Position numbers and translations under genes: made by a program. Below, one piece after another: positions 3,579 through 47,996 of a DNA stretch of 48,034 nucleotides; position 1 is the stretch's first letter, and every line of letters begins with the position of its first letter. The notes under the pieces are model-generated. The model ran no database searches, was not told the origin of the DNA, and saw only the letters and a list, made by a program, of their open reading frames with translations. The DNA comes from Candidatus Colenecus caballi (GTDB lineage: Bacteria; Bacteroidota; Bacteroidia; Bacteroidales; Bacteroidaceae), in NCBI GenBank assembly GCA_018065615.1, contig JAGHSY010000070.1:1-48034 (forward strand). The letters are read 5' to 3'.

Positions 3579-3600
3579 CATTTCAGAATTGACAAGTCCG

Positions 3601-4494
3601 ATGAAAAAGAAGATAGCGTTTCTGTTCAACCCCATTTCCGGCGGTCACAGGCTCATACCGGTGACACCGCTCATTGAACGTCACGTGAACAGGGACCTGT
3701 ATGATTTCTGCATTGTCCCCACCCAGCATTCCGGCCATGCCGTCGAACTGGCACGCGAATATGCCGAGAAGGGCTATGATGCCGTATTTGCAGTTGGCGG
3801 TGACGGCACTGTCAACGAAGTTGGACGCGGGCTCATCGGCACAGACACGGCATTGGGTATAATCCCATGCGGCTCCGGCAATGGGCTGGCCCGCCATCTG
3901 GGCATTTCCATGGACCCCTTCAAGGCAGTAAAATGGTTGAACAAAACCATCATTACTGACATGGACTACGGCCTGATAAACGGACGCCCTTTCTTCTGCA
4001 CTTGCGGTGTGGGATTTGACGCGCAGATCAGCATGAGCTTCTCAAAAGCGGGATCACGCGGAATCATTACCTACCTTGAAAACATCCTCAAAGAGATAAC
4101 GACCTATCAGACTGAAAGATACAGCCTTACCATGGATGGTTCCCAAAAACGTACAAAGGCTTTCATTGTCACAGTAGCCAATGCCGGACAGTGGGGCAAC
4201 AACGCCTTCATCGCGCCTAAAGCGTCTGTGCGTGACGGTCTTCTGGACATATCGGTAATTCCGCGTCTGAAAGCTGTCGATACACCTCTCATGGCCCTGC
4301 AGCTGTTCAACGGACAGCTTGACAGGAATCCCAACGTCAAGACTTACCGCTGTCATGAACTTACAATAAACAGGAAAAGTGAAGGTGTGGCGCACTATGA
4401 CGGAGACCCGGTCATAATGGGGCCGGAAATCAACATTTCCATGGTACCTGCCGGACTGAAAATCATGATTCCGGACAAAGGCCGCGACATCTAG
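3601..4494 (+). CDS. Diacylglycerol kinase-family (YegS-type) lipid kinase
   Basis: The 297-residue protein has the three signatures of the DAGK/YegS/sphingosine kinase fold: NPISGG (10-15), the nucleotide-binding GGDGT (66-70) followed by VNEVGRGL, and PCGSGNGLAR (89-98). A C-terminal beta-rich lipid-binding part ends with DGDPV. It probably phosphorylates a lipid using ATP; the substrate in this lineage is not evident. The frame is open further upstream, but the ATG at 3601 gives the family N-terminus (KKKIAFLFNPISGG) and follows a promoter at 3571. That ATG is embedded in a copy of the octamer GTCCGATG. The stop shares the palindrome CTAG with the convergent trmN stop. Confidence 0.9.
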   Translation: MKKKIAFLFNPISGGHRLIPVTPLIERHVNRDLYDFCIVPTQHSGHAVELAREYAEKGYDAVFAVGGDGTVNEVGRGLIGTDTALGIIPCGSGNGLARHLGISMDPFKAVKWLNKTIITDMDYGLINGRPFFCTCGVGFDAQISMSFSKAGSRGIITYLENILKEITTYQTERYSLTMDGSQKRTKAFIVTVANAGQWGNNAFIAPKASVRDGLLDISVIPRLKAVDTPLMALQLFNGQLDRNPNVKTYRCHELTINRKSEGVAHYDGDPVIMGPEINISMVPAGLKIMIPDKGRDI

Positions 4495-5165
4495 TATTTC
4501 AAATAAAAATCTTTTACAAGTCCGATGTATTCGGCACCTGTCATGTCCAGAACCGATGACACGGGCTGTCTGTACTGGCGGGAGAATGTCAGCAGCACCC
4601 TTTTGGGCTGTCTGCCAGGAGCCGTAACGACTTCCGTGCTGCGGATGACATTAAGTCCGGCAGCCTGCGCAATGCGTATCATGTCAGTTCCGGTTGGCAG
4701 CACCACAGAAAATTCACCGTCAGGAGCAATAAGGCGGCAGACAGCGCTGACAAGGTCCTCATAGCTGAGACTGTCATTATGGCGGGCCGTTCTGCGCCCT
4801 TCATCCGGACAGCGCAGCGAATCCCTGAAATACGGAGGGTTGCAGACTATGCGGTCAAAAGGCTGTTCAGACCTGTAGTCCGATATATCTGCGTTCTGCA
4901 CGGTTACAGGCCATGGTGAAGCCTGTGCGTTCTCCGTTGCCTGTGCGGCTGCATCGGACTCAATCTCGACAGCCACCACCCTGCCCGCCCCGCGCTGGGC
5001 AGCCATGAGCGCTATCAGCCCCGTTCCGGTGCCAATGTCCAGCACACTCTGGCCCGGTTCAAGACCGAACCAGGCTCCAAGCAGGACGCCGTCAGTACCG
5101 ACTTTCATTGCACACCGGTCCTGGTTTACAGTGAAATGTTTGAACTGGAAATACGTATTTGACAT
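4491..5165 (-). CDS. trmN: tRNA1(Val) adenine-37 N6-methyltransferase (TrmN6/YfiC type)
   Basis: This 224-residue class I SAM-dependent methyltransferase has the SAM loop DIGTGTG (43-49), the acidic VEIE strand end and the catalytic NPPY (109-112) of N6-adenine methyltransferases. It starts with the family-like FQFKHFTVNQDRCAMKVGTDGVLLGAW. TrmN6 methylates A37 of tRNA-Val; the exact substrate here is inferred. An in-frame extension to 5255 exists, but the start at 5165 matches homologues and follows a -7 element at 5195-5188. The start codon lies inside an octamer copy (GTCCG-ATG). It diverges from lon and converges on the lipid kinase with a 4-nt overlap. Confidence 0.9.
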   Translation of the reverse strand: MSNTYFQFKHFTVNQDRCAMKVGTDGVLLGAWFGLEPGQSVLDIGTGTGLIALMAAQRGAGRVVAVEIESDAAAQATENAQASPWPVTVQNADISDYRSEQPFDRIVCNPPYFRDSLRCPDEGRRTARHNDSLSYEDLVSAVCRLIAPDGEFSVVLPTGTDMIRIAQAAGLNVIRSTEVVTAPGRQPKRVLLTFSRQYRQPVSSVLDMTGAEYIGLVKDFYLKY

Positions 5166-5187
5166 CGGACAGAATCCTTTAACGGCA

Positions 5188-5195
5188 CAAAAGTA
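5188..5195 (-). promoter_or_regulatory. -7 promoter element of trmN
   Basis: Minus-strand TACTTTTG fits TAnnTTTG and lies 22 nt before the trmN ATG. Confidence 0.6.
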
Positions 5196-5227
5196 CGTTT
5201 TTTGGCGGTCACGTGCGCACATTTGTT

Positions 5228-7739: not shown

Positions 7740-8875
7740 GCGGACTGAAATTCGAACTCCAGCACACGGACAGCTCATGTGCCGCAAGAGCCGGAAGGAT
7801 AACCACAGGGCATGGTGTCATTGAGACGCCCATTTTCATGCCTGTGGGTACTGTCGGCTCAGTCAAGGCCGTGCATGTGCCGGAACTTAAGGATGACATA
7901 AAGGCTCAGATCATTCTTGGCAACACATACCATCTGTACCTTCGTCCGGGACTTGACGTGCTGGAGAAGGCTGGCGGCCTGCACAGATTCAACTCCTTTG
8001 ACCGCCCCATGCTGACTGACAGCGGCGGTTTCCAGGTCTTCTCGCTGACCGGCCTGAGGAAGATGACTGAAGAAGGCGTGACCTTCCAGTCCCACATAGA
8101 CGGTTCGCGCCATCTGTTCACCCCTGAACGTGTCATGGACATAGAGCGCTCCATTGGCGCAGACATCATGATGGCCTTTGACGAATGCTGTCCGGGCACC
8201 GCAGACTACAGCTATGCTAAAAAATCAATGCAGCGCACCCACCGCTGGCTTGACCGCTGCATTCAGCGTTTTGATGAGACTGAGCCCAAATACGGCTACC
8301 ATCAGGCACTGTTCCCCATAGTCCAGGGCTGCACATACCGTGATCTCAGAACGGAATCGGCCGAATACATAGCATCAAAAGGCGCTGAAGGCAATGCCAT
8401 TGGCGGTCTTGCCGTAGGTGAACCGGCACCGGTCATGTATGAAATGATTGAACTTGTCAACGGCATACTGCCCAAGGACCGCCCCCGCTACCTTATGGGC
8501 GTTGGAACTCCTGAGAACATACTTGAGGGAATTGGTCTGGGCGTTGACATGTTTGACTGCGTCATGCCCACACGCAACGGCCGCAACGCCATGCTGTTCA
8601 CGAAGGACGGCATAATAAACATACGCAACAAAAAGTGGGAGGACGCCTTTGAGCCCATAGAGTCCGATGGCGCATCATACGTTGACACACTTTACACAAA
8701 AGCATATCTTCACCATCTGTTCAAGGCCAAGGAATACCTGGCGCTGCAGATTGCATCGGTCCACAACCTTGCCTTCTACCTGTGGCTTGTGGGTGAAGCC
8801 AGAAAGCATATCCTGGCCGATGACTACCATGCATGGAAAGATATTATGGTAAAACGGGTAATGCAACGCATATAA
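7736..8875 (+). CDS. tgt: Queuine tRNA-ribosyltransferase, variant lacking zinc cysteines
   Basis: This 379-residue TIM-barrel enzyme swaps guanine-34 for a queuosine precursor in tRNAs for Asn, Asp, His and Tyr. Active-site landmarks are present: LTDSGGFQ with D95 and the nucleophile D274 in DMFDCVMPTRNGRN. The start is GTG at 7736, overlapping the lon stop as GTGA. Where classical bacterial Tgt has a CxCxxC...H zinc site before AYLRHLF, this protein reads GASYVDTLYTKAYLHHLF and has none of the cysteines. From memory this is usual for Bacteroidota Tgt, so it is probably a lineage trait and not damage. Confidence 0.95.
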   Translation: MSGLKFELQHTDSSCAARAGRITTGHGVIETPIFMPVGTVGSVKAVHVPELKDDIKAQIILGNTYHLYLRPGLDVLEKAGGLHRFNSFDRPMLTDSGGFQVFSLTGLRKMTEEGVTFQSHIDGSRHLFTPERVMDIERSIGADIMMAFDECCPGTADYSYAKKSMQRTHRWLDRCIQRFDETEPKYGYHQALFPIVQGCTYRDLRTESAEYIASKGAEGNAIGGLAVGEPAPVMYEMIELVNGILPKDRPRYLMGVGTPENILEGIGLGVDMFDCVMPTRNGRNAMLFTKDGIINIRNKKWEDAFEPIESDGASYVDTLYTKAYLHHLFKAKEYLALQIASVHNLAFYLWLVGEARKHILADDYHAWKDIMVKRVMQRI

Positions 8876-8881: not shown

Positions 8882-10000
8882 ATGAAAAGAATATTCAGAC
8901 ACAGACTGCTGACCACTCTGGACTGGTACATAATAAAGAAGTTCCTTGGCACGTACTTCTTCTCCATTGCGCTCATCATTGCCATTGCCGTGATATTTGA
9001 CTTCAACGAGCACATTGACAAGTTGAACAAGGCATCGGCCTACGAAATTGCGTTCCAATACTATCTGAACTTCATTCCGTACTTTGCCAACCTGTTCAGT
9101 CCGCTGTTTGTTTTCATTGCGGTCATATTCTTCACATCGAAACTGGCTGAGAATTCAGAAATAATTGCCATGTTCTCGACCGGCATGAGTTTCAAGCGCA
9201 TGATGGTTCCGTACATGCTGTCTGCAGCCTTCATTGCCGGTCTGACACTCTGGCTCGGGTCAGAAGTCATACCGAAAGGCAATGTGGTCCGTGTCGATTT
9301 TGAGACCCGCTACAAAATACATCACACCAACCGTGACAACACTGACGGTCTGACGAACGTCCAGCTTGAAGTTGAAGACGGTGTGATTGCCTACATTGAG
9401 CGTTTCTCCACTTACGACCAGACGGGACACCGTTTCTCATTGGACAAGTTTGAAGACAAGAAACTGGTGTCACACATGACTGCAAGAACCATCACCTATG
9501 ACACCACGTCGGTGGAGAAATACCATTGGATTGCCAAAAAGTACATGGTCCGTGACATGTCCGGAAACGTTGAGACCATAAGTCAGGGAAATGAGCTGGA
9601 CACCATAATCAGATTCGAGCCATCGGACTTTCTCATCAAGAACGGGCAGCAGGAGACCATGTCATCGCCAGAACTGCGCCAGTACATAAGGCAGCAGAAA
9701 GCGCGCGGATTCGGCAACATTCAGGACTTTGAAATTGAATACCACAAGCGGTATGCCATGTCATTCGCTTCATTCATACTGACAATCATTGGCGTATCAC
9801 TTTCCAGCCGCAAGCGTAAAGGAGGCATGGGACTGCACCTTGGAATCGGACTTGGGCTCAGTTTCGGCTACATCCTGTTCCAGGAGGTGGCATCAATGTT
9901 CGCTGTAGCCAATGTCATGTCCGCCTTCTGGGCCGAATGGCTGCCCAACGTGGTATTCGTGATCATTGCAATATATCTGTACATTAAAGCACCCAAATAA
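8882..10000 (+). CDS. LptF/LptG-family (YjgP/YjgQ) lipopolysaccharide export permease
   Basis: This 372-residue inner-membrane protein has a first TM segment near residue 25, two more TMs in the first 110 residues, a large periplasmic beta-rich region (about 130-280), and three C-terminal TM segments. That is the LptF/LptG topology. Such permeases partner LptB to extract lipopolysaccharide toward the outer membrane. LptF and LptG cannot be told apart here, so no symbol is given. It follows tgt by 6 nt and precedes the helicase gene by 5 nt, so lon-tgt-lptF/G-helicase look like one transcription unit. Confidence 0.9.
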   Translation: MKRIFRHRLLTTLDWYIIKKFLGTYFFSIALIIAIAVIFDFNEHIDKLNKASAYEIAFQYYLNFIPYFANLFSPLFVFIAVIFFTSKLAENSEIIAMFSTGMSFKRMMVPYMLSAAFIAGLTLWLGSEVIPKGNVVRVDFETRYKIHHTNRDNTDGLTNVQLEVEDGVIAYIERFSTYDQTGHRFSLDKFEDKKLVSHMTARTITYDTTSVEKYHWIAKKYMVRDMSGNVETISQGNELDTIIRFEPSDFLIKNGQQETMSSPELRQYIRQQKARGFGNIQDFEIEYHKRYAMSFASFILTIIGVSLSSRKRKGGMGLHLGIGLGLSFGYILFQEVASMFAVANVMSAFWAEWLPNVVFVIIAIYLYIKAPK

Positions 10001-10005: not shown

Positions 10006-11232
10006 ATGAGGTTTGATGAACTTGATTTTGAGCCGGCTCTTCTTGACGCCATTGATTCCATGAACTTTCAGGACTGCACCCCCATCCAGGAGCAGGCCAT
10101 TCCGCATCTTCTCAAAGGACGTGACCTTATTGGCGTGGCACAGACCGGCACAGGCAAGACAGCCGCATACCTGCTTCCGGTTCTTGACAGGCTTTCCAGC
10201 GGCAGCTATCCCAGTGACGCTATCAACTGTCTGATCATGGTCCCCACCCGTGAACTTGCACAGCAGATAGACCAGCAGGTTGAAGGGTTCTCATATTTTC
10301 TTGACGTTTCCAGCACCGCCGTCTATGGCGGAAATGACGGAATCCGTTTCGAACAGGAGAAACGCGGATTCGCCATGGGCACAGACATTGTTGTCGCCAC
10401 GCCAGGCCGTCTCATAAGCCACATCAGCCTTGGCAACATTGACCTTTCCAAGGTATCGTTCTTCATACTTGATGAAGCCGACCGCATGCTTGACATGGGT
10501 TTCTATGACGACATAATGCAGATTGTTTCACAGCTGCCCAAGGAACGCCAGAACATGCTGTTCTCTGCCACCATGCCACAGGAAATACAGAATATGGCGC
10601 GCAGCATTCTGCACAACCCTGTCGAGGTCAAGCTGGCTGTATCAAAACCCGCCGACAAGATACTCCAGGCCGCATACGTATGCTATGAGGCCCAAAAGCT
10701 GAGAATAGTCCAGAGTCTGTTTGAGTCCGATGCGCCCAAACGCGTCATTGTTTTCGCGTCATCAAAACTCAAGGTCAAAGAGATAACCAAATCCTTGAGA
10801 CGGCTTGGAATGAACGTGGGTGAGATGCATTCGGACCTGTCCCAGGCAGAACGCGACGACATCATGCTGCGTTTCCGCAATGCCCACATAAACGTACTGG
10901 TGGCTACTGACATTGTATCACGCGGTATTGACATTGATGACATTGACCTGGTAATAAACTATGACGTGCCGCATGATCCGGAAGATTATGTCCACCGCAT
11001 AGGACGCACAGCCCGCGCCGGCGCTGAAGGCTGCGCCCTTACCTTTGTGAGCGTTGACGAACAGACCCAGTTCGGCCACATTGAGAAGTTCCTGGAAAAG
11101 GAAATATACAAAGTCCCCATGGATACGGAACGTTTTGGCCAGGTGCCAGAATACAGCCCTGTCCGCAAAAATCCGCACCGTCATTCAGGCGGTCCACGCA
11201 GACATCAGGGTACAAAAAAACCGCGCAGCTGA
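10006..11232 (+). CDS. DEAD-box ATP-dependent RNA helicase (RhlE-like)
   Basis: The 408-residue protein has every DEAD-box motif: Q-motif CTPIQEQAIP, Walker A AQTGTGKT (45-52), PTRELAQQ, TPGR, DEAD (156-159), SAT (187-189), and in domain 2 DIVSRGIDI and HRIGRTAR. A short basic tail (PHRHSGGPRRHQGTKKPRS) probably aids RNA binding. Such enzymes remodel structured RNA in ribosome assembly or decay; the specific target is unknown. It is the last gene of the lon run, and the stop codon lies within the loop of a strong terminator. Confidence 0.95.
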   Translation: MRFDELDFEPALLDAIDSMNFQDCTPIQEQAIPHLLKGRDLIGVAQTGTGKTAAYLLPVLDRLSSGSYPSDAINCLIMVPTRELAQQIDQQVEGFSYFLDVSSTAVYGGNDGIRFEQEKRGFAMGTDIVVATPGRLISHISLGNIDLSKVSFFILDEADRMLDMGFYDDIMQIVSQLPKERQNMLFSATMPQEIQNMARSILHNPVEVKLAVSKPADKILQAAYVCYEAQKLRIVQSLFESDAPKRVIVFASSKLKVKEITKSLRRLGMNVGEMHSDLSQAERDDIMLRFRNAHINVLVATDIVSRGIDIDDIDLVINYDVPHDPEDYVHRIGRTARAGAEGCALTFVSVDEQTQFGHIEKFLEKEIYKVPMDTERFGQVPEYSPVRKNPHRHSGGPRRHQGTKKPRS

Positions 11233-12669: not shown

Positions 12670-13488
12670 TCAGTACTTTTCCTTATCATTCGGAAAATCC
12701 CTGCTTTTTACGTCCTCCACATACTGTCCGACAGCCTGCGTTATTATTTCGAACAGATTTGCATATCTCCTAAGGAATCTGGGACTGAAATCGGTATTCA
12801 TGCCAAGCATGTCGGCGCAGACCAGCACCTGACCGTCCACACCGCCTCCGGCACCTATACCTATAATAGGAATGGACACTTCACTTGCAACACGTTCAGC
12901 CAGCGTTGCCGGAATCTTTTCAAGTACGATGGAGAAACAGCCGGCATCTTCAAGCGCATGGGCATCGGACACCAGTTTTTCAGCTTCGGCCTCTTCCTTG
13001 GCGCGTACGGCGTATGTTCCGAACTTGTTGATTGACTGCGGTGTCAGTCCCAGATGTCCCATAACCGGAATACCGGCGTCAATGATATGGCGGACTGACG
13101 GCAGAATCTCCACGCCGCCTTCAAGCTTCAGGGCATCGGCATGTGAGACCTTCATTATCTTTATGGCATTGGTGACAGCCTCGGAATCATTTATCTGATA
13201 TGTTCCGAAAGGCATATCAACTACAACGAGAGCACGCTGCACGCCACGTACCACGGACTTTGCATGATAGATCATCTGGTCCAGCGTAATTGGCAGCGTA
13301 GTCTGGTTGCCGGCCATCACGTTCGATGCGGAATCACCTACAAGAATCACGTCAATACCTGCTCCGTCAACAATCTTGGCCATTGTGTAGTCGTATGACG
13401 TGAGCATTGAAATCTTTTCACCGCGCTGCTTCATTTCCCTGAGGCGCTGGGTGGTAACTTTTCTTCTGTCTTCTGAAATATATCCCAT
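12670..13488 (-). CDS. panB: 3-methyl-2-oxobutanoate hydroxymethyltransferase
   Basis: This 272-residue enzyme makes ketopantoate from alpha-ketoisovalerate and methylene-tetrahydrofolate, the first committed step to pantothenate and CoA. Metal and substrate residues are in place: D52 ([11 protein letters not shown]), D91 (VVDMPFGTY), E123 (KLEGG) and the catalytic E190 ([11 protein letters not shown]). It is full length. The gene stands alone, with its own promoter diverging from addA; no other pan gene is in the window. Its substrate comes from the valine/leucine branch, whose leuA lies 31 kb away in this window. Confidence 0.97.
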
Positions 13489-13551: not shown

Positions 13552-13568
13552 AATACTTTATAAGTCCG

Positions 13569-16500
13569 ATGAAAACAGACAGCAATCTTACTATCTACAA
13601 GGCGTCAGCCGGCTCAGGAAAGACATTCCGCCTGGCTGTGCGCTACATTACCATGCTTGTGCGCAACCCGCAGTCATACAGCACAATCCTGGCGGTGACC
13701 TTCACCAACAAGGCCACTGCAGAAATGAAGCAGCGCATTCTCTCGCAACTGTACGGCATAGGACACAGGCTGGAAAGTTCACAGGGCTACTACAATGAGA
13801 TACGCAAGGCCATACCCACATACACGGAGGACACCATACGCCACAACGCCACTCTGGCGCTGGACAGCATTCTGCAGGACTACGGTCATTTCAGGGTGGA
13901 GACCATAGACAGCTTCTTCCAGGGAATACTGCGCGGACTGGCCCGTGAACTGCAGCTGGGCAACGGCCTTAGTGTCGAGCTTGACACTGACAAGGTCATA
14001 AGTGACGCCGTTGACGACTTCCTGGCAAATCTTGATCCTGACCCAAAATCCCAGGACAGAAGGAATGTGCAGCGTTTCATCATGGACAGGATTGGGAATG
14101 ATTCGAACTGGAACATAGATGGCAGTCTGAAGAAATTTTCCAAGGAACTGTTCAGCGAGATCTTCATGCAGAAAGGTGAAGATCTGAAAAGGATTCTTGA
14201 AAAGCCCGATGCAATCCGGGATTATCAGGAAAATCTGACCGGTGCAAGAGATGCCGTCCTGCCTGACCTTAAAAGGAAAGTCATCGGCATCGGACTTGAA
14301 ATACAGGCATTGATGTCTGACGCCGGACACGGAATTGATGATTTTCAGGCTTACATGCAGACGCCTGTCAGAGCAATGATAAGCGGAGACATTCTGGATA
14401 GTGACCTTTCAAAGACAATGGTCGCAGGCTGCAGTGACCCGGAAAAATTCTTCACCAAAGCAAAGCTTAAGACTGACCCGTCACTTCTGGCACTGGCTGA
14501 GCGTGAGTTCTGCCACCGGCTGGATAGGGTCCGGGAAATTCATGAGGAGTATTCCTTCTATGCCCACTCCTACTCTGCGGCCCTGCAGTATCTGTATGAA
14601 CTGAGCCTGCTTCTGTCAGTCCGCAGCCGCATTGACGCCCAAAGCCGTGAGCAGGGACGTTTCGTACTTGCTGACACGCCGAAGATGCTGGGTGACCTGA
14701 GACAGGGCGACACGTCTTTCGTATTTGAAAAGACCGGCAGTTTCACAGACCATGTCATGATCGATGAGTTCCAGGACACGTCCGTACTGCAGTGGCGCAA
14801 CCTGTACCTTCTGCTGCTGGAATGTCTGTCACGCGGCAGGGAATGCCTTGTCGTGGGTGACGTCAAGCAGTCCATCTACCGCTGGCGCAACAGTGACTGG
14901 AACATTCTCAATACCGGCATTGAGGAAAAACTGGGCCAGTACTGCAGGATTGAGACCATGAGTGACAACTACCGCAGCCACAATGCCGTCATAGACTTCA
15001 ACAACCGTCTCTTTCCTCAGGCCGGAAAAGCCGTTCAGGAATATGTCAGCACCCTTACCGGCAGCACTTTCCCGGCACTGGACAAGGCATACGCCGATGT
15101 CTGTCAGAACTGCATGAAAGACAGCGCTCAGGGATACGTTTCGGTCAGCATAATCAGCACGAAGCTGAAAGGACAGGAACTGGATGACGACATCTGCCGG
15201 CGCATATCAGATTCCATAGACAGTCTCACCACTGCCGGCGTCCTTCAGTCCGATATTGCCATACTGTGCCGCAAGACCGATGAAATCAGCAGGATAGCAT
15301 CATGGTTCGCCGCCAACCGCAGTGACTGCCACATGATTTCAAGTGAGGCCTTCCGTCTGGACTCATCGGTCTCAGTTAGAATACTCATAGGGGCCTTGCG
15401 TTGGATTGCTGACCGCAATGACCGCGTATCACTGGCTACAATGCTGTGGGAATGGAAAACGGCCGTCATGCAGTCAGAACTTGTCATCCAGGACATTGAA
15501 TCCGATGCAATGGAGCAGTATCTGCCTGACACGCTGGCAGGCCATTGGGAAATGCTCAGGCAGATGCCCTTATACGAACTGGTTGAAAAACTGTATGTTG
15601 ACCTTGATCTCGGAAAGGTCAAAGGACAGGACGGATACATATTCACCTTCTTTGACACAGTCAGCGACTGGCTCAAGCACAACCCGGGTGACATACAGGT
15701 CTTCCTGACCGACTGGGATGACAAACTTCACAAGAATGCCATACCTTCAACTGACAGTGACGGCATAAGGCTTCTGACAATACATAAGTCCAAGGGGCTT
15801 GAATTCCACACCGTCATTGTCCCATTCTGCGACTGGGCTGTCACCAAGTCAGGCGACAAGCTTTGGGTAAAGCCGGAAATTGCCCCGTTCAACAGAATGC
15901 CCCTGCTGCCCATAGGATTCAATGAAAAGCTCCATACATCGGTCTTCAACAAGGAATATGCCGGTGAGGTCGGACAGCAGGCCGTTGACAACCTCAATCT
16001 GCTGTACGTGGCGTTCACAAGGGCTGAAAGCAATCTCATAGCGTTCGCCAACCGCCACAGCACAAAAGGAAATTCCACATGCAATATCCTTGAGAACAGC
16101 CTGACAGCAGCCTTTGAATGTGAGTCCGATGACGACGGCATATCCTACCGTGCAGGTACAATCTGCCCGCATAGAGAGAAAAAGAGCAAGACCAGTGACA
16201 ACCCGTTTGACTGTGACATTGAAACTGAGGACATAGCCATGAGCTCACTTCCGCCCAATGCCCAGTTCCGCCAGTCTGGCGAATCGGTGCGTTTCACCAG
16301 GTCGGCCGGTGACCCGGAAGACCGTCAGGAAGACTACATCAAACGCGGAAGCCTGCTCCACAGCCTGTTCTCCACAATAAGGACAGTGTCCGATGTTGAC
16401 ACGCAGGTGGACAGTCTTTTCGGCCAGGGGATCATTGACAGCAGGGCCCGGGCGGACAGACTGAAGGCCGACATCCGTGACCACATTGAAAAGTCCGGGG

Positions 16501-36079: not shown

Positions 36080-37957
36080 GTGGATAAAAGATCATATTTA
36101 GGTATTCTGCTCATAGGTGTGGCCATGGCATTTGTCGTACTTTGGTCAGGCAGGGCTGAAAAGAAGAACGCTCCGGCAAGACAGCAGTACGAACAGGCTC
36201 TTGATTCAGCAAGGGCAGCCCAGGATTCATTGAAGTATGAAGACGTGACAGTGACCGTCACCACAGCTGAACCGGACTCCCTGTCACCCCTCTTCCCCGC
36301 CCTGAACGGTGAAGAACAGCAATACACCCTTGACAACGGACTTGTAAAGATAGGTATCTCAAACAAGGGCGCAGTTCCTTGTTTCGCGCAGCTGAGCGGA
36401 TACCTGGACCAGCAGGGCGGCAACATCATACTGTTTGACAGGAACGAAATAAGCCTGAACTTCAAGTTCGACGGCAAGAATCAGAACATACAGAGCAAGA
36501 ACCTGTATTTTGAAACCATTCCGGCCGGAAACAGTTCTGTTGTAATGCGTCTGAACACGAACGGTTACGGCTACATGGACTTCAAATACACCCTGCAGCC
36601 CGACAGCTACATGCTCAATCTTGACATTAAGGCCTGCGGCATGGACAACTTCTTTTCATCGGACCTGAACGCTCTGGCTGTTGACTGGATTCAGAATCTG
36701 CGCCAGCAGGAAAAGGGCTTTGACTTTGAGCAGCGTTACACCACCCTTACCTACAAGCGTGCCGACAAGGCAAAAGGCAAGGTCATGAACGTGACAAAAT
36801 CAACCAGGAAAGTCACTGTAGAGGAGCCAATTGACTGGATTGCATACAAGAACCAGTTCTTCTCATGCATCATGATCGCTTCCCAGACATACAGTGAAAA
36901 CACCGCTCTGACCGGCATGGCTTATGAAAAGGGCAAGGGTTACATGAAAAAGTTCATGACCAAGACACACGCCCAGTTCGATCCGTCCGGCAGTGAGCCC
37001 ACACAGTTCCAGTTCTACATCGGACCTAACGACTACAAGATTCTCAAGCAGAACAGCAAGCTGGCAAATGACGGTAAGAAGATTCGTTTGAACCGTGTAA
37101 TTGACCTGGGCTGGCCCATTGTCCGTGAAGTGAACCGTTTCCTTATCATACCTCTGTTCAACCTGCTTTCAAAGTGGAATCTGAACATGGGTCTGGTAAT
37201 CCTGCTCATGACTCTCATTGTCAAAGTACTGGTATTCCCGGCACAGTTCAAGTCATACATGTCAAGCGCCAAGATGCGCGCCCTCAAGCCGTATGTCGAT
37301 GAAGTGAATGCCAAATACCCCAAGCAGGAAGATGCCATGAAGAAACAGCAGGAGACCATGGCCGTGTACAGCAAATACGGTGTCAGTCCCATGGGCGGCT
37401 GCCTGCCTTCACTCATACAGATGCCTGTCTGGATGGCATTCTTCTTCTTTGTACCAAATGCCATTGAACTGCGTCAGCAGAGTTTTCTCTGGGCAACCGA
37501 CCTTACAGGTTTCGATGACATTCTGAGCTGGAACGCCAACATTCCTCTCATAGGCAACCACCTGAGCATATTCTGCGTATTGTTCTGCGTGACGAATATC
37601 ATCAACACCATCTATTCAATGCAGCAGCAACAGCAGGCTCCCGGACAGGAGGACACCATGAAGGCCATGAAATGGATGATGTACCTCATGCCGATAATAT
37701 TCTTCTTCTCATTCAACAACTATTCTTCAGGCCTGTGCTACTACTACTTCATTTCAGGTCTGGTAAGCATTGTCACAATGATTTACCTGCGCCGCTCGAC
37801 AGATGAAAAGAAGATTCTGGCCAAACTTGAGGCCGATTATGAGGCAAGCCGCAATGATCCGACCAAACGCAAGCAGGGAGGCAGCAACATGATGGCCCGC
37901 CTTGAGGCCCTGCAGAAAGAACAGGAAAGACTGCAACAGCAGCAGAAAAACAGATAA
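36080..37957 (+). CDS. yidC: Membrane protein insertase
   Basis: This 625-residue Oxa1-family insertase helps SecYEG or acts alone to place proteins in the inner membrane. An N-terminal TM (YLGILLIGVAMAFVVLWSG) is followed by a large periplasmic domain, then the conserved core from about residue 355 (LNMGLVILLMTLIVKVLVFPAQ, MGGCLPSLIQMPVWMAFFFF, IFFFSFNNYSSGLCYYYFISGLV) with five TMs. The start is GTG at 36080 (MDKRSYLG). A basic, glutamine-rich tail ends the protein. It is followed by a bidirectional terminator. I see no pyrG upstream, which often accompanies yidC in relatives. Confidence 0.96.
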   Translation: MDKRSYLGILLIGVAMAFVVLWSGRAEKKNAPARQQYEQALDSARAAQDSLKYEDVTVTVTTAEPDSLSPLFPALNGEEQQYTLDNGLVKIGISNKGAVPCFAQLSGYLDQQGGNIILFDRNEISLNFKFDGKNQNIQSKNLYFETIPAGNSSVVMRLNTNGYGYMDFKYTLQPDSYMLNLDIKACGMDNFFSSDLNALAVDWIQNLRQQEKGFDFEQRYTTLTYKRADKAKGKVMNVTKSTRKVTVEEPIDWIAYKNQFFSCIMIASQTYSENTALTGMAYEKGKGYMKKFMTKTHAQFDPSGSEPTQFQFYIGPNDYKILKQNSKLANDGKKIRLNRVIDLGWPIVREVNRFLIIPLFNLLSKWNLNMGLVILLMTLIVKVLVFPAQFKSYMSSAKMRALKPYVDEVNAKYPKQEDAMKKQQETMAVYSKYGVSPMGGCLPSLIQMPVWMAFFFFVPNAIELRQQSFLWATDLTGFDDILSWNANIPLIGNHLSIFCVLFCVTNIINTIYSMQQQQQAPGQEDTMKAMKWMMYLMPIIFFFSFNNYSSGLCYYYFISGLVSIVTMIYLRRSTDEKKILAKLEADYEASRNDPTKRKQGGSNMMARLEALQKEQERLQQQQKNR

Positions 37958-37988: not shown

Positions 37989-39154
37989 CATTTGCTGTTG
38001 TGTTCCAACCATACCGTCGGCGTGGTGTTGCAGAACATTTTGAAATACCGGTAAAACGTCTGGGTTGATCCGCAACCGCACTCTGCAGCTATGTTCTGAA
38101 CAATGATTTCACCGGGAGACCTGCGCCCCATCAGGTCCAACGCATAGTCTATCCTGAACCTGTTCACATAGTCCGAAAAATTGCATCCCTTAAACTGCTT
38201 TATAGCCTGTGACACGTATGTTCTGTTGGTGCCCACAGCTTCGGAGAGCATGATAAGGGAAAGAGACGGATTCAGGAACAGTCTGTCACGGACCATCACG
38301 TCATCCATCTTCTCCATTAAAGCAAGCAGAACACCTTCTGAGGCCGATGTGGCATCGGACTGACCCGGAGCTGTAGCTTCTATCATCCGGCTCAATGATT
38401 CTGCAGTATAGTCAACCTTATCGGAATAAACCACTATCCTGACTACAATGACGACCTCCAGAAAATTGAGGAGAGCAACAAGCAGCAGGCTGTTCCCCCA
38501 CTCATGAGTAGGAAGCATGGACAGGCTCATTGCCATTATGATGATTACAATTGACATGGAGTGAATACCACGAATGCGGATTACATCCGTACTGTCTATT
38601 GTTGAATAATAGTCACCTAAAAGATTTACATAACTTTTCAGCCTGAATACGCCATACACAATCACAAGAACGACCTGCAGGCACAAAATGACGCGGAACA
38701 ACTGATAACCGGCCAAAATAAGCATCTCATAGGATTGGGTTGAAACGTCACCGGCCTTTCCCTGTGTGATATAGCCAATATAAGCATGCCTTTCAACATC
38801 TGATGCCATCAGATACGAATAGACCAGTAAAAGGACAAGAATGACAGATGGAGCAAAAGCCAGAATTTCTTTGACTTCAGATCTTCTGATTTCAGTCAGT
38901 CTGTTCAAGAAAAGGAAATAGACCGGAGCACAGAAAGGGGCTATCACACCGTAAGCCAGATCAAATCCCCATAACTGTCTTTCAATAACTGCCGGATTGT
39001 AATACTGTGCATAGCAGAAAATGGAAACTGACAGAATCAGAAGGACATTGGCCATTGTATCCGTCACATGTGATTTCTTCTTCCTGGCAAGCAGATAAAT
39101 TGCACCGCCAAGAGTCGCCAGTGCCGGAAGACAGAAAAGGACACAGTACAACAT
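37988..39154 (-). CDS. Membrane-bound AraC-family transcriptional regulator
   Basis: The 388-residue protein has an N-terminal half made of six or seven hydrophobic helices (for example LYCVLFCLPALATLGGAIYLL, FCAPVYFLFL, ILAFAPSVILVLLLVYSYL, VLVIVYGVF, LLLVALLNFLEVVIVVRIV). A linker leads to a C-terminal HTH_18 DNA-binding domain (SLSLIMLSEAVGTNRTYVSQAI...IAAECGCGSTQTFYRYFKMF). This integral-membrane AraC layout is seen in Bacteroidota; the signal sensed is unknown. It begins 4 nt after the S9 peptidase stop and shares its transcript, suggesting that peptide metabolism and regulation are linked. Confidence 0.88.
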   Translation of the reverse strand: MLYCVLFCLPALATLGGAIYLLARKKKSHVTDTMANVLLILSVSIFCYAQYYNPAVIERQLWGFDLAYGVIAPFCAPVYFLFLNRLTEIRRSEVKEILAFAPSVILVLLLVYSYLMASDVERHAYIGYITQGKAGDVSTQSYEMLILAGYQLFRVILCLQVVLVIVYGVFRLKSYVNLLGDYYSTIDSTDVIRIRGIHSMSIVIIIMAMSLSMLPTHEWGNSLLLVALLNFLEVVIVVRIVVYSDKVDYTAESLSRMIEATAPGQSDATSASEGVLLALMEKMDDVMVRDRLFLNPSLSLIMLSEAVGTNRTYVSQAIKQFKGCNFSDYVNRFRIDYALDLMGRRSPGEIIVQNIAAECGCGSTQTFYRYFKMFCNTTPTVWLEHNSK

Positions 39155-39158: not shown

Positions 39159-41282
39159 TTATTCAGATTCTGTCTTCAGCCATTTGTCAAGCCAGTTGAA
39201 GTATGTGCGCTGCCAGAGAATGCCGTTCTGCGGTTTCAGTACCCAATGGTTCTCATCAGGGAAAAGCAGAAGTTCTGCCGGAACGCCGCGAAGTCTGGCT
39301 GCCTGGAAGGCCGATACAGCCTGAGAATACAGGATTCTGTAGTCCTTCTCGCCATGAATGCACAGAATAGGCGTATCCCACTTGTCAATGAACAGATGCG
39401 GTGATGAGGCGTATGTCTTTCTGGCAATGTCATTGTCATCCCAGTACGGACCGCCCAGATCCCACTGCGGGAACCACATCTCTTCAGTCTCGACAAACTG
39501 CTGCTGACAGTTGAATATGCCGTCATGAGCAATGAATGCCTTGAAACGGCCGTCATGATGACCGGCAAGCCAATAGACGGAATAGCCACCAAAGCTTGCG
39601 CCTACACAGCCCAGACGGTCGCTGTCAACGTACGGTTCAGTGCTTACGTCATCAATGGCAGCCAGAAGGTCTTCCATGCACTGTCCGGCATAGTCACCGC
39701 TAATCTGTTCAAGCCATTTCTGTCCGAAACCGGGCAGTCCGCGACGGTTAGGTGCAACAACAATATAGCCCTGTGCAGCCATAATTCTGAAATTCCATCG
39801 GTAGCTCCAGAACTGTGAGACCATGCTCTGGGGTCCGCCTTCACAGAACAGAAGCGTAGGATATTTCTTTGAAGGGTCAAAATCGGGCGGGAACACCACC
39901 CAGGTAAGCATATCCTTTCCGTCTGTTGTCTTCACGGAACGGGCCTCGACCTTGATGTTGTCCAGTTGTGAGAATATGTGGTCATTCTCATGAGAAAGCT
40001 TTCCGGCCAACCCACGCTTGGTATCTACTGCATAAATCTCAGTTGCGTTTCTCATTGACTGTCTGGTTACAATGAGCTTGGCATCATTGCCCCAAGCCAG
40101 AGAATTGTAATCACATGCATCATTGTTCACAGTTATCACATTTCCATCCAGATCAACCATGAAAAGGGACATGCATCCCTGCCAGGAACCTATAAAGTAA
40201 AGGTAATTCCTGTCAGGTCTCCATATGAAATCGTCAACATTGCTGTCAAACGACTCTGACACAGACCACTTTCTGCCAGCCTTGAGATCCATGACATACA
40301 GTCTGTTACGGTCACTCTCATATCCGTCACGCTCCATGCTCTGCCATGCAATGTACTGTCCGTCACTGCTGAACTTAGGATTCGTGTCATAACCCATATT
40401 GCGGTCTTCCTGTCCGTCAATCTTGCAGATGTTGCGTGTCCCGCCTGTTTCAACATCATAAAGGTATATGTCCGAATCAGTGCTCTTTGCATATTCAAGA
40501 CCGGACTTCTTACGGCAGGTGTATGCAACCGTTCTGCTGTCCGGGCTCCATGAGAACTGCTCAATACCGCCAAACGGAAGCATCGGACTCTCATAAGGTT
40601 CGCCATCAAGCAGATCTGTGACTTTTGCTGAGACTGACTTGCCGTCAAAAGCAGCCATATACGGGTGTGGCAGTTCTGTCACCCAGCTGTCCCAATGTCT
40701 GAACATAAGGTCGTCTGCCACCATACCGCTGGCTTCCGGCAGATCATCATACTGATGTTCCCTGACCAGCGGATTGGGAACGCCCATGACCATTATCACC
40801 TTTGAATTGTCCGGGGAGAACAGGAAACCCTGCACGTCACGGTCTGTAGAGGAGAGCTGGCTGCGGTGTCTGCCTGAAGCATTCATGCGCCATATCTGCT
40901 GGCTGCCGCTGCGACTGCTCAGGAACGCAATATTGTCATTGTCAATCCATGCGGGACTGTGTTCTGAATAATGTGAGCCTGTCAGAAGTCTGACGTTCTC
41001 ACCGTTCTCATCCATAACATAGATTACAGTGTGGCTTGCATTTTCCTTAACGCTGTAGTAGGTGACCTGATAGGCAATTTTCTTTCTGTCCGGTGACACG
41101 GCAACATTGCCTATGCGTCCCATCGACCACAGGATCTCAGGTGTAAGCCTGCCGTCAGTTATTGTGACATTACTGCGTCCGATATTGGATTTGCTGTCAT
41201 TCTTCTTGATTTCCATCACTCCCAAAGCTGCTGCAACTGCAAAAAGCACCACAATCAGAGCGGCGCGCAATCTGTTGTTCAT
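39159..41282 (-). CDS. S9 family prolyl oligopeptidase-like dipeptidyl/acylaminoacyl peptidase
   Basis: The 707-residue exported or membrane-anchored serine peptidase has an N-terminal hydrophobic anchor (LRAALIVVLFAVAAALGV), a WD/beta-propeller region (VAVSPDRKKIAYQV, FSWSPDSRTVAYTC) and a C-terminal alpha/beta-hydrolase with S563 in GASFGGY, an Asp in HGEKDYR and H679 in DENHWV. It probably trims short peptides in the periplasm, like DPP5-type enzymes. I chose ATG 41282; a longer start at 41324 would overlap the flavin reductase gene and the -7-like element at 41309-41302. Confidence 0.92.
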   Translation of the reverse strand: MNNRLRAALIVVLFAVAAALGVMEIKKNDSKSNIGRSNVTITDGRLTPEILWSMGRIGNVAVSPDRKKIAYQVTYYSVKENASHTVIYVMDENGENVRLLTGSHYSEHSPAWIDNDNIAFLSSRSGSQQIWRMNASGRHRSQLSSTDRDVQGFLFSPDNSKVIMVMGVPNPLVREHQYDDLPEASGMVADDLMFRHWDSWVTELPHPYMAAFDGKSVSAKVTDLLDGEPYESPMLPFGGIEQFSWSPDSRTVAYTCRKKSGLEYAKSTDSDIYLYDVETGGTRNICKIDGQEDRNMGYDTNPKFSSDGQYIAWQSMERDGYESDRNRLYVMDLKAGRKWSVSESFDSNVDDFIWRPDRNYLYFIGSWQGCMSLFMVDLDGNVITVNNDACDYNSLAWGNDAKLIVTRQSMRNATEIYAVDTKRGLAGKLSHENDHIFSQLDNIKVEARSVKTTDGKDMLTWVVFPPDFDPSKKYPTLLFCEGGPQSMVSQFWSYRWNFRIMAAQGYIVVAPNRRGLPGFGQKWLEQISGDYAGQCMEDLLAAIDDVSTEPYVDSDRLGCVGASFGGYSVYWLAGHHDGRFKAFIAHDGIFNCQQQFVETEEMWFPQWDLGGPYWDDNDIARKTYASSPHLFIDKWDTPILCIHGEKDYRILYSQAVSAFQAARLRGVPAELLLFPDENHWVLKPQNGILWQRTYFNWLDKWLKTESE

Positions 41283-44321: not shown

Positions 44322-45817
44322 AATCTGTAGAATTTGTTCACGGCACTGATGAATGCCTCGACCGATGCGGTCACAATGTCCGTGTTGGCCGAAAAGCCGT
44401 AATACAGGCGTCTGTCATATTCAACCTGCATGTGGACCTTACCGGTATCATCACTGCCCTTGTCCATTGCCTGAATCAGGAACTCACGTATTGTCATCTT
44501 TTTGAGAATGATCTTCTTGACCGCCTTTATTGCCGCATCGACCGGACCGTTTCCTTCAGACTGAGCCTCCATCTGCCGGCCCTCGACTGTCAGACGGACC
44601 AGAGCATTATGGGTAACGCCCTTCCCGGAAACGACATTCAGGAAATCCAGTCTGACAGGTGCCAGTTCATCGGACTTCTTTCCGGCTATCATCAGCAGGT
44701 CATCATCGGAAATGTCCAGCTTCACATCGGCCATTTTCAGAAAACGGTCGTATGCACTGTCCAAAGCCTCACCATCCATCTCCACTCCCATCGACATGAA
44801 ACGTTTCTTGAGTGCGGCACGTCCGCTCCTGGCTGTCAGTACCAGAGTATTGTCTATCATGCCCACGTCACGCGGGTCAATAATACCATACGTCTCCCGC
44901 AGTTTGATAATGCCGTCCTGATGTATGCCGGACGAATGTGAGAATGCGTTTCTGCCAACAACAGCCTTGTTGGGCTGCACCGGCATATTCATCAGAGAAG
45001 AGACAAGACGGCTTGTGTGGAACAGACGCGTTGTGTTGATTCCGGTTTCAAGGTCAAGTTCCTTATGACCGCGCAGAATCATAGCAATCTCTTCAAGTGC
45101 AGTGTTACCGGCACGTTCACCAACGCCATTCATTGTCACTTCAACCTGGCGTGCGCCGCTACGTATGGCCTGCACAGTGTTAGCGGTAGCCATTCCAAGA
45201 TCATCATGACAATGCACAGAAAGAATCACGTCATCAATTCCGTCAACATGTTCCTTCAAATATCTGATCTTTTCTCCAAACTCATCAGGAAGACAATAAC
45301 CCGTCGTGTCAGGAATGTTCACAACCGTAACGCCAGCCTTTATCACAGCCTGAACGACACGGGCCAGAAACTCATTGTCAGTACGTCCCGCATCCTCACA
45401 GTAGAATTCCACATCATCAACAAGGTTACGGGCATATCTGGCTGCAGCAACAGCCTGTTCAAGTATGGCGTCACGCGTGGAATTGAACTTGTACCTTATA
45501 TGCAGGTCCGATGTTCCTATACCCGTATGGATACGCGCACGCCGGGCCGGTTTCAAAGCCTGTGCAGCCACCTCTATGTCATTGGGCAAAGCACGCGACA
45601 GAGCGCATACCACTGGCTCAGTTACAGCCTTTGATATACTGACCACACTTTCGTAGTCACCCGGACTGGACACAGGGAATCCGGCTTCAATGACATCAAC
45701 CCCCAGTTCTTCAAGAGCTCTGGCCACCTGGATCTTCTCAATCCTGTTCAGCTGGCAACCCGGAACCTGTTCCCCATCTCTGAGAGTAGTGTCGAATATG
45801 AAGAGCCTTTCTGACAT
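44318..45817 (-). CDS. leuA: 2-isopropylmalate synthase
   Basis: This 499-residue enzyme condenses acetyl-CoA with alpha-ketoisovalerate, the first committed leucine step. It has [13 protein letters not shown] (catalytic Arg-Asp pair), [22 protein letters not shown] (metal-binding His residues) and [10 protein letters not shown], then a LeuA-type dimer/allosteric domain ([19 protein letters not shown]). It is first in the four-gene run. leuB, leuC and leuD, which commonly accompany it in Bacteroides, are absent from this window. Confidence 0.95.
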
Positions 45818-46129: not shown

Positions 46130-46135
46130 TAATGC

Positions 46136-46242
46136 AAACAAGGAGAGAAGATTGGTTGTGAAACCGGTTCATCTAAATTTCAATTATTGGAAAAGGACTA
46201 TTGAGACAAGAGGCCCGCAGTTATGCGAGCCTCTCGTTTTTT
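46136..46242 (+). ncRNA. Candidate small RNA 2 (~107 nt)
   Basis: The inferred transcript runs from about 46136 to the T-run at 46242. It contains a small hairpin GGTT-GTGA-AACC (same tetraloop as in unit 1), an unpaired A/T-rich middle and a terminator hairpin. A GTG-initiated frame runs through the terminator to 46260 but looks incidental. No known Rfam family is recognised. It ends just before the convergent receiver gene stop. Confidence 0.42.
46209..46242 (+). terminator. Rho-independent terminator of candidate small RNA 2
   Basis: AGAGGC and GCCTCT plus CGCA/TGCG form a stem with one mismatch and a GTTA loop, followed by CG and six Ts (46237-46242) on the + strand. The minus strand has no T-run, so it is oriented rightward. 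Confidence 0.85.
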
Positions 46243-46265
46243 ATCAAAGTACGTTATGACGGATT

Positions 46266-46697
46266 TCAGCCTCTTGAATCAGCTTCCATGGCAAGAATCA
46301 TCTCAAACTGGGTGTTTACACTCTCATAGAGCTTTTCCATTGTAATGGGTTTGGTCAGAAATTCATCAGCACCAAGATTCAGAGCCTTGACAACATTCTC
46401 ATTGGTGTTCAGCGCTGAAAGGACAACTATTCTCAAATTCTTATATGCGCCGTCCGCGCGCACCCTGCGAATGACATCATAGCCATCCAGGACCGGCATC
46501 ATAAGATCCAGCAGGACAAGAACCGGTTTTTCGGACTCGATCTTTTCCAGAGCTTCCTGACCGTTCATTGCAGTTATAGTCACAAAGTTGTATTTGCCAA
46601 GCATTTTTCTGACAAGCAGCAAATTAAGGTTTATGTCATCGACCACAAGCACCTTGTATGCTGACAAGTCCCTATCCATCATCTGTTGTGCGTCCAT
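46266..46697 (-). CDS. Stand-alone response-regulator receiver protein (CheY-like)
   Basis: The 143-residue single receiver domain has acidic pair D20-D21 (VLVVDDINLN), phospho-acceptor D64 (VLLDLMMPVLDGYD) and the conserved Thr/Ser and Lys positions (VVLSALN, FLTKPI). There is no output domain. It follows the membrane AraC gene by 24 nt and is probably cotranscribed. No histidine kinase is in the window, so the phosphate donor and target are unknown; it could act on the adjacent regulator. Confidence 0.93.
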   Translation of the reverse strand: MDAQQMMDRDLSAYKVLVVDDINLNLLLVRKMLGKYNFVTITAMNGQEALEKIESEKPVLVLLDLMMPVLDGYDVIRRVRADGAYKNLRIVVLSALNTNENVVKALNLGADEFLTKPITMEKLYESVNTQFEMILAMEADSRG

Positions 46698-46721
46698 ATA
46701 GGTTATAGTTTGTTTCAGTTA

Positions 46722-47996
46722 TCATTCAGTCCTCTGTGACAGTTCCTGACATCTGTCTTTCCAGATTTTCGGTGTCACTCCAGCATATTTTGTAAACGCA
46801 ACGTTGAAAGAGGCTGCACTTGAAAAGCCGCAGGCCTGCGCAATATACTTTTGAGTAACATTTTCATTATTGAGAATAAACTGTTCGGCATAGTCAATTC
46901 TCAGCATATTGAGATATGATGAAAACGGTATGCCATACACGTCATCCAACATATCAGAAAGTTGTTCCTTCCCGACTCCAAGACGCTCAGCCACATCGGC
47001 AAGTGTAATGTTGCGTTCAAGAAACATGCGTTCCTGAAGCATAAGATTCTCAAAACGGGACGTCAGTTCAAGTGTCTGGGCAAGATTCGTCTGAGGTACC
47101 GCCACCGATGTCAGAGCAGCAGCCTGCTGAACTCTCAAATTCATGGCAGCACCACTTGTGTTCTCATCGGACCTGGCAGCGGAATCTGCGGTCGGGCGAT
47201 TGAACTTGAGCAATGAACAGATGTCATGGAATGAGCACCGCACATTGTCTCCCGCTGTTCCTGTCAGAGAAGCGACAGTTACAAACAGCGTCACAAAGAG
47301 CGGCATGACATACAGTGGCCACCGCATGTTCACCGCATAGGACTTGCCCAACACAAGCATGCACACATTGAACGTTGTCGCCACCAGCATCAACGTACAC
47401 TGGGCGTATGCGGTATCGGTCTTCTTTGTCTTGAAATAGAACCCCGCGGTTTCACATAAGCGGAAACGGCTGTCTGTAATATGTACAAGTGACAGAATTA
47501 TGAAAAACAGATACTGCATTCCTATTATTACCTTGAATCCGATGACCAGACAGAAATATAGCAGTTCCTGACTTCTGTCATCAAGAGAGAATCCTGTAAG
47601 TCTGCCTGAATTTATGTCCATGACAAATTGCGTGGCATTGCCATAACCTATTATCCATATAATTACGCATTCCGCAAAGACAAGAATAACCGGCAGATAA
47701 TAACTTAGCCGCAAAAGTGAATTCTTTTCAGTACACCCGCGCATGACATAAAGATATGACAGGAGAGCAGGAATCGACACCAGTCCGAAAGCATGTTCAA
47801 GCAAAGTGCAAATGACTACCGTTCTTGCAACATCCGTAACTACAAGCGGCATTACCGCAGCAAAATAATATACAGACTGGATTGCCAGAACAAACATGGC
47901 ATACCTGTACACACGTTCCCTTGTTGACATAATCCGATAAAGGACCAGCCAGAACAGGCAAGCCATGCCAGGTAACAGCAGCAGGAACTGACGCAT
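46722..47996 (-). CDS. Membrane-bound AraC-family transcriptional regulator
   Basis: The 424-residue protein has about seven hydrophobic helices in the first 240 residues (FLLLLPGMACLFWLVLYRI, YAMFVLAIQSVYYFAAVMPLV, LVSIPALLSYLYVM, LPVILVFAECVIIWIIGYG, LYFCLVIGFKVIIGMQYLFFIIL, LYVMPLFVTLFVTVASL). A variable linker and an HTH_18 domain follow (ITLADVAERLGVGKEQLSDML, YIAQACGFSSAASFNVAFTKYAGVTPKIWK). It has the same architecture as the regulator at 37988-39154 but is divergent in sequence. The signal and regulon are unknown. Confidence 0.88.
   Translation of the reverse strand: MRQFLLLLPGMACLFWLVLYRIMSTRERVYRYAMFVLAIQSVYYFAAVMPLVVTDVARTVVICTLLEHAFGLVSIPALLSYLYVMRGCTEKNSLLRLSYYLPVILVFAECVIIWIIGYGNATQFVMDINSGRLTGFSLDDRSQELLYFCLVIGFKVIIGMQYLFFIILSLVHITDSRFRLCETAGFYFKTKKTDTAYAQCTLMLVATTFNVCMLVLGKSYAVNMRWPLYVMPLFVTLFVTVASLTGTAGDNVRCSFHDICSLLKFNRPTADSAARSDENTSGAAMNLRVQQAAALTSVAVPQTNLAQTLELTSRFENLMLQERMFLERNITLADVAERLGVGKEQLSDMLDDVYGIPFSSYLNMLRIDYAEQFILNNENVTQKYIAQACGFSSAASFNVAFTKYAGVTPKIWKDRCQELSQRTE

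Follow-up and report, generated by a model that had tools for sequence, protein, structure and literature searches.

The octamer GTCCGATG, which is not its own reverse complement, recurs throughout the 48,034-nucleotide stretch of Candidatus Colenecus caballi analyzed here in full (the window) and throughout the genome from which it comes. Its excess was confirmed to be real, strong, and located at the level of DNA, and the octamer represents the dialect, in a single species, of a word common to most of the genus; roughly, this genus-wide word is the longer and more degenerate RG(T/G)YCGATG(Y)C. We favor the view that the word may serve in the recognition of self-DNA, most likely in natural transformation, and that it would be maintained by biased transformation, a reading to which we assign a probability of about 0.5.

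Excess of the word at the DNA level

The genome of the window (G000) is a draft of 2,252,565 bases in 125 contigs with a completeness of about 91%, the window being contig 7. It contains 1216 copies of GTCCGATG (629 and 587 by strand), i.e., one per 1.85 kb or 540 per Mb; the same letters read backwards occur 62 times. Null models were applied to an own-genome sample of 385,630 bases, comprising 20 stretches plus the window, in which 275 genes were called with a simple script. The coding sequences hold 191 copies, compared with 12.5 when synonymous codons were shuffled within genes (standard deviation, 3.2; maximum, 21; 100 runs) and with 38.6 under a null model that preserves codon pairs and protein (standard deviation, 5.2; maximum, 50; 40 runs) and that is itself inflated by the word. 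In the 47 kb of intergenic sequence, 11 copies were found versus 0.77 expected from its own composition, an approximately 14-fold excess, and a wide form of the motif occurred 31 times versus 4.5 expected. Since 81 of the coding copies run along the gene and 110 are opposed to it, the signal does not reside in the mRNA. The sister species G147 represents a natural control, as its three coding copies match the 3.0 expected, a further argument against a protein motif held in common.

The initial annotation had proposed that the force acts on the DNA word and not only on a dipeptide, and had suggested codon shuffling and Markov-5/6 models as checks. The proposal is upheld by the synonymous, codon-pair, and noncoding tests together with the G147 control. 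Most copies do lie in Ser-Asp or Ile-Gly frames, and Ser-Asp is somewhat overused in G000 (553 versus 454), but this surplus is no larger than the word itself could cause, and all three null models and the G147 contrast contradict a codon, codon-pair, or dipeptide preference as the source of the excess. With 191 copies versus 12.5 or 38.6 in genes and 11 versus 0.77 outside them, we reject this explanation with near certainty. The Markov-5/6 models, run on the window only and fitted on it, predicted 28 and 36 copies; they carry no information here, as the 6- and 7-mers used in the fit come in part from the word itself.

Copies in the window

The window contains 36 exact copies, 18 on each strand, versus a mean of 1.87 and a maximum of 6 in 100 dinucleotide shuffles, and GTCCGATG is its top-ranking octamer. 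The strong excess was recognized in the initial annotation, which counted 35 copies (17 on the plus and 18 on the minus strand) and overlooked the one at 2477. With the totals raised from 35 to 36, the preference for G on both sides of the core persists: the next base is G in 36 of the 51 occurrences of GTCCGAT, and the preceding base is G in 36 of the 47 occurrences of TCCGATG. The commonest extension, AGTCCGATG, again comprises 20 copies, now out of 36, and recounting returned the same numbers of copies in Ser-Asp frames (21, with 11 on the same strand and 10 on the opposite one) and in Ile-Gly frames (9). The balance relative to gene direction, previously given as 17 versus 18, was revised to 15 with and 19 against the gene, the remaining 2 copies lying either at an edge or in sequence without a called gene. 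The copies are listed below, followed by two genes whose names, AddA and AddB, are our reading of their domains and, for AddA, also of the gene pairing.

Exact matches to GTCCGATG:
2477..2484, +, exact match, overlooked earlier
3596..3603, +, exact match
4520..4527, +, exact match
4952..4959, -, exact match
5163..5170, -, exact match
8662..8669, +, exact match
9621..9628, -, exact match
10725..10732, +, exact match
12963..12970, -, exact match
13564..13571, +, exact match, overlaps the start codon of the addA-like frame at 13569
14288..14295, -, exact match
16124..16131, +, exact match
16388..16395, +, exact match
17043..17050, +, exact match
17402..17409, -, exact match
18938..18970, pair facing apart, starts at 18938 (-) and 18963 (+), 25 bases apart, within the addB-like gene
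19157..19164, -, exact match
19708..19715, +, exact match, beyond the script-called genes
20943..20950, +, exact match
22095..22102, +, exact match
23867..23874, +, exact match
25988..25995, -, exact match
26732..26739, -, exact match
28593..28600, +, exact match
29974..29981, +, exact match
31067..31074, -, exact match
32313..32320, +, exact match
33889..33896, -, exact match
36657..36664, -, exact match
37018..37025, -, exact match
38353..38360, -, exact match
40581..40588, -, exact match
44668..44675, -, exact match
45506..45513, +, exact match
47165..47172, -, exact match

Genes:
13569..16769, +, AddA-like helicase-nuclease gene (UvrD-helicase, 8e-33; PDDEXK_1, 7.4e-6)
16774..19674, +, AddB-like nuclease gene, basis of the genus tree (PDDEXK_1, 4.8e-34)

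Structure of the motif

Under synonymous shuffling, the full GTCCGATG exceeded expectation 15.4-fold, and its single-mismatch forms were graded by their likeness to it around an essential core. Specifically, changes within CGAT reduced the ratio to 0.2- to 2.2-fold; any base was tolerated at position 2 (4.9- to 7.3-fold), T at position 3 (3.0-fold), A and T at position 8 (6.3- and 2.5-fold, respectively), and T and A at position 1 (4.2- and 3.4-fold, respectively). Such grading is a trait of uptake words, whose overrepresentation declines with mismatch load according to Bakkali (PMC1939737). The preferences extend beyond the octamer: the upstream neighbor is A in 107 of 204 copies, C is weakly preferred 2 and 3 bases downstream of CGAT, and the longer AGTCCGATGCC was found 15 times versus 0.7 expected in the pooled genes of G000 and G165. 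A palindromic GGC-N4-GCC frame was considered as the true motif and rejected, as it reached 1.0- to 1.3-fold over five pools.

Dialects within the genus

Across a genus set of 37 genomes of uncultured Bacteroidaceae, G000 has the highest count of GTCCGATG, with its sister G165 holding 760 copies and G164 487. In the other 35 genomes, G164 included, GTCCGATG is outnumbered by GGCCGATG, which reaches up to 1166 copies. The preferred form is AGTCCGATG in G000 and its sister and GGCCGATG in a clade of 19 species, and two other members (G088 and G050) require CGATGYC. CGATG is the constant core of every dialect, and some members are without the word. The comparison of related genomes suggested in the initial annotation thus revealed dialects and, instead of a fixed octamer, a longer and degenerate word that spans the genus, with the octamer as the dialect of one species.

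Synonymous-shuffle scans yielded 39 copies of GTCCGATG versus 3.5 expected in G165, whereas the scans for GGCCGATG gave 82 versus 14.3 in G119, 60 versus 13.0 in G133, 33 versus 7.4 in G024, 34 versus 6.5 in G147, and 16 versus 2.4 in G104; for CGATGCC, the values were 69 versus 8.7 in G088 and 76 versus 12.7 in G050. None of the scanned words rose above about 3-fold in G158, G070, and G156, and the wide motif stood at 1.0-fold when these three were pooled. In clade pools, the 5′ half of the word was required in both the T clade (G000 and G165) and the GG clade (G119, G133, G024, G147, and G104), with the 3′ half alone at 1.0- and 0.8-fold, respectively, and the composite GGCCGATGCC reached 12.9-fold in the GG clade. 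For G088 and G050 it was the 3′ half that was required, the 5′ half alone giving 0.7-fold.

A tree of the AddB-like protein covered 30 of the 37 genus genomes plus 3 rows from outside, with G050, G088, G151, G154, G157, G171, and G177 absent; several rows are long branches, and only the following groupings were used. G000 and G165 fall together (support, 96/100), the 19 species rich in GGCCGATG form a group (90/100), the word-poor G156 and G160 are paired (100/100), and G158, G163, and G070 are joined (100/99), with G163 and G070 being low in the word, though not empty. The dialects hence track clades while sharing their core, as is characteristic of uptake words. G156 and G160 are AT rich, with a GC content of 0.39 and 0.41 of the sampled letters, most sampled members having about 0.47 to 0.52; G088 and G050 stand at 0.42 yet bear a word. 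The nearest named relatives by the AddB-like protein are uncultured Bacteroidaceae or Bacteroidales from horse faeces and the ruminant gut.

Reach outside the genus

The highest density of GTCCGATG in 142 further genomes of the family was about 91 per Mb, in G008, compared with 540 per Mb in G000. Raw counts in a sample of 295 genomes of the order, uncorrected for codon use, put a few distant members (G407, G492, G383, and G351) at about 170 to 230 GGCCGATG per Mb, a range overlapping at the edges with the 187 to 507 per Mb of the 19-species clade. Beyond the genus, no word of genus-level strength emerged from ten genomes and one locus, each represented by 21 to 68 kb of coding sequence. Exceptions to the codon-like background described below, in samples of 25 to 52 kb of coding sequence, were GTCCGATG in G008 (6 versus 1.5) and GGCCGATG in G046 (7 versus 1.6). 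The latter genome, from another genus of the same family (L234 to L236), contains in 52 kb of coding sequence 24 copies of CCGATGYA versus 4.5, a pattern picked post hoc, and 31 of GTCGATG versus 8.6 after synonymous shuffling; CCGATGYA comes nearest to a word of that strength and is possibly a related dialect. A family-wide word was rejected: CGATGYC is enriched in raw counts in many genera, but CGATGCC reached only 1.5- to 2.9-fold versus synonymous shuffles in these ten genomes and one locus, and we read this surplus as codon or codon-pair background. Likewise discarded was L141, which is dense in CGATGYC (51) but GC rich, and in which CGATGCC drops to 2.6-fold. Some near-complete relatives outside the genus (G010, G015, G022, and others) have lopsided strands for GTCCGATG, e.g., 138/70 in G022, while members of the genus are close to forward/reverse balance.

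Placement, strand neutrality, and turnover

The spacing of GTCCGATG in the own-genome sample is consistent with an exponential distribution (183 intervals; Kolmogorov-Smirnov test, p 0.59). With GC skew standing in for replication direction on the draft contigs, the 20 stretches gave 98 copies on the G-rich versus 101 on the C-rich strand, i.e., no replication-strand bias. Chi of E. coli K-12, used as a positive control, was distributed 37:14 by GC skew in four 50-kb stretches and 36:15 by replication direction (from the positions of origin and terminus), and it exceeded synonymous shuffles 2.6-fold (45 versus 17.0). The skew test advised in the initial annotation therefore agrees with its statement that the word is unlike Chi and the FtsK-orienting polar sequences (KOPS), a KOPS-type skew being likewise absent.

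In about 48 kb aligned between G000 and G165, the same four copies are kept out of 21 and 13 aligned copies, respectively; the numbers are small. As 18.8% of any aligned octamers are identical, 4 of 21 indicates that copy number is held genome-wide while single sites turn over. The three longest stretches of the sample that are free of the wide motif lie in L005, L010, and L001, each with 0 copies versus about 8 expected from its own composition multiplied by the genome-wide excess (275 versus 35.0 in 200 kb). The gap in L005 is a capsule-type locus encoding glycosyltransferases, LicD, a polysaccharide pyruvyl transferase, and a MatE-like transporter; that in L010 is an Rhs/SpvB-like gene of 2362 codons; and that in L001 includes pyruvate oxidoreductase-like, OmpA-like, and coiled-coil-like genes. 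The gaps in L005 and L010 look like horizontally variable loci; as the gaps were chosen for their length and only these two have that look, the test is no more than indicative.

The richest 5-kb bin of the sample, with 14 wide-motif copies, is window 20000-25000, which covers a uvrA-like gene. The window as a whole carries 1.73 wide motifs per kb versus about 1.4 elsewhere in the sample and encodes the repair-like addA, addB, uvrA, and uvrB. Genome-maintenance genes are favored by uptake words. All four pairs of GTCCGATG with starts less than 40 bases apart face outward, minus then plus (window 18938-18970; L003:18070-18096; L016:17781-17819 and 19013-19045); unlike these pairs, the wide motif has no clear outward-facing bias.

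A search of the sampled sequence for clustered regularly interspaced short palindromic repeats (CRISPR) returned only other short repeats. A second repeat family is present in 4 of the 21 own-genome sample sequences (L010:4262-4555, L013:588-964, L014:14-1508, and L020:17449-17576). It consists of tandem units of about 83 bp with the inverted repeat CGTTAGGGA...TCCCTAACG, several of which are joined by TACGCAGGTTT(T/G)TGCGTG, and the repeats of L010 and L014 matched no Rfam family at gathering score.

A candidate self-DNA recognition word

Our favored explanation builds on an excess at the DNA level, on degeneracy that is graded, on the balance between strands and the turnover of sites, on dialects that follow clades, on members without the word, on gaps in some variable loci, and on the presence of ComEC and DprA. 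A reader protein would bind the word whichever way it is oriented on the DNA, and DNA carrying it would be preferentially taken up, or kept. Once recombined into the chromosome, this DNA would slowly convert near-matches throughout the genome to matches, a molecular drive under which no individual site would have a function. A change in the reader protein would shift the preferred flanks and could thereby give rise to dialects around the fixed CGATG. The required reader would recognize RGKYCGATG(YC), would drift in specificity among sisters, and would be missing in some members. Among known systems, the uptake words of competent bacteria combine all of these traits. What we infer is the existence of such a protein, its role in DNA uptake, competence of the cells, and a receptor outside the type IV pilins. 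More tentatively, and at somewhat less than even odds, there may be at least three dialects (AGTCCGATG, GGCCGATR, and CGATGYC) read by a receptor other than a type IV pilin, which would make this a third independent origin of sequence-selective uptake.

ComEC was found in all 37 genus genomes and DprA in the genome of the window. That Bacteroidota can be naturally competent is documented for Riemerella anatipestifer, where, according to passages of the published account (PMC8459023), transformation needs ComEC, DprA, ComF, and RecA plus proteins unlike known machinery; a predicted outer membrane protein is among these novel proteins, a SusC/RagA-type outer membrane protein contributes, and the passages mention no uptake sequence. 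Judging by the titles listed, a literature search on uptake words in Bacteroidota, Bacteroides, or Porphyromonas gingivalis yielded nothing about such a word, and a search for the octamers themselves gave only an unrelated match. We found no report of an uptake-like self-DNA word in Bacteroidota.

Several observations weigh against this explanation. ComEC and DprA are widespread and do not discriminate, being present in 10 and 11 of 14 control genomes, respectively; moreover, ComEC also occurs in the word-less members and does not track the word. The type IV pilus/secretion ATPase family PF00437 had no match in G000 (22 candidates scored in the approximately 91% complete genome; pilin families not searched), while a control Bacteroides genome gave a match. 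This makes a type IV minor pilin receptor unlikely and would call for a receptor of a new kind; we regard the link to a receptor and to uptake as the weakest step. With the pilus ATPase sought but not found, the word is treated as a candidate and not assigned to the DNA uptake sequences (DUS). Regarding placement, no position bias within genes or pile-up at gene ends was detected in G000 (Kolmogorov-Smirnov test, p 0.41), and counts of the wide motif in 5-kb bins are overdispersed relative to Poisson (dispersion, 1.49; p 0.005) and correlate with GC content (rho 0.66). Close pairs of the wide motif (within 60 bases) number 34 in G000 versus 48 expected, with no orientation clearly favored; a terminator or dimer-site role was rejected on this count, despite a surplus in the sister genomes G119 (31 versus 20.9) and G164 (14 versus 6.7). 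On the distribution tests, the word behaves like an uptake sequence, the exceptions being pairing of the terminator type and a bias to the ends of genes, two features described in some uptake-word species but not universal.

The main rival, which we nevertheless consider unlikely, is an origin in methylation or repair similar to that of HIP1 (highly iterated palindrome 1), in which part of the word would be the recognition site of a methyltransferase and mark-directed or context-specific mismatch repair would turn near-matches into matches. A repair bias of this kind would likewise balance the strands, let sites turn over, and leave recently acquired DNA free of the word, and passages on the cyanobacterial words report that their abundance and replacement track methyltransferases (PMC4390886). 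Those words are palindromic, however, and GTCCGATG is not; besides, near-matches (any base at position 2, A at position 8) are enriched 5- to 7-fold rather than converted away. Slightly less likely still is another genome-wide self-mark, such as sites of a nucleoid, segregation, or defense protein selected for their density. The distribution would fit any protein needing many dispersed, individually dispensable sites, but a shared core with flanks shifting among sisters and absence in some members is best known from uptake words, and we know of no nucleoid, segregation, or defense protein that fits the word.

A Chi-like role, in which the word would be read by the AddAB helicase-nuclease, is disfavored and ranks as the least probable of these alternatives. 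In line with the initial annotation, which stated that AddAB is encoded here, domain matches place both an AddA-like and an AddB-like gene within the window; AddB-like matches occur in 34 of the 37 genus genomes, and one copy per 1.85 kb is a density compatible with Chi. Against this stand the lack of G-rich-strand bias (98:101 versus 37:14 for E. coli Chi), an approximately 15-fold synonymous-shuffle excess (191 versus 12.5) compared with 2.6-fold for E. coli Chi, and the fact that G158, G070, and G156 carry AddB-like genes yet no such word. Unbiased Chi may occur in some bacteria.

To our knowledge, uptake words with dialects are known only from two proteobacterial families, both using type IV pili. 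If the word does function in self-DNA uptake, a third case, in Bacteroidota without a detected pilus ATPase, would mean that self-selective uptake can evolve on other machinery, and gene flow among gut bacteria would be limited by a barrier at the sequence level. It would then also become feasible to look for the receptor, whose gene should occur in the members with the word, differ from dialect to dialect, and be missing or decayed in the members that lack the word.

Comparison with known systems

KOPS differ from GTCCGATG, which has no strong replication-direction skew. Chi, read by RecBCD or AddAB, is likewise a frequent asymmetric octamer, and AddAB-like genes are present here, but GTCCGATG is without strand bias and in far larger excess than E. 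coli Chi. HIP1, as described in passages of PMC4390886, shares with it the form of a very frequent octamer whose place is taken by different words in some relatives; it differs in being palindromic and methyltransferase linked, whereas GTCCGATG is asymmetric. The initial annotation had likened the word to both DUS and HIP1; the former likeness is retained, and the latter is weaker because the word is not palindromic. The uptake signal sequences of Pasteurellaceae are similar in being intragenic, on both strands, and present in hundreds to thousands of copies, according to PMC2346458; G000 differs by its other word, by showing no gene-end bias, and by the absence of a detected pilus ATPase.

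The DUS of Neisseriaceae are also among the most similar systems. Differences are the host, a member of the Bacteroidota; the failure to find a PF00437 ATPase, hence no sign of a pilus; and the lack of an excess of close inverted pairs in G000. Close inverted DUS pairs acting as terminators are common in Neisseria, though not universal. The DUS receptor is ComP, a type IV minor pilin. Shared features are a short, nonpalindromic word in excess, its occurrence in both orientations, graded single-mismatch forms, and dialects with a fixed core that follow clades, just as, in passages of PMC3630211, the DUS dialects of Neisseriaceae retain CTG as their core and run parallel to the species tree.

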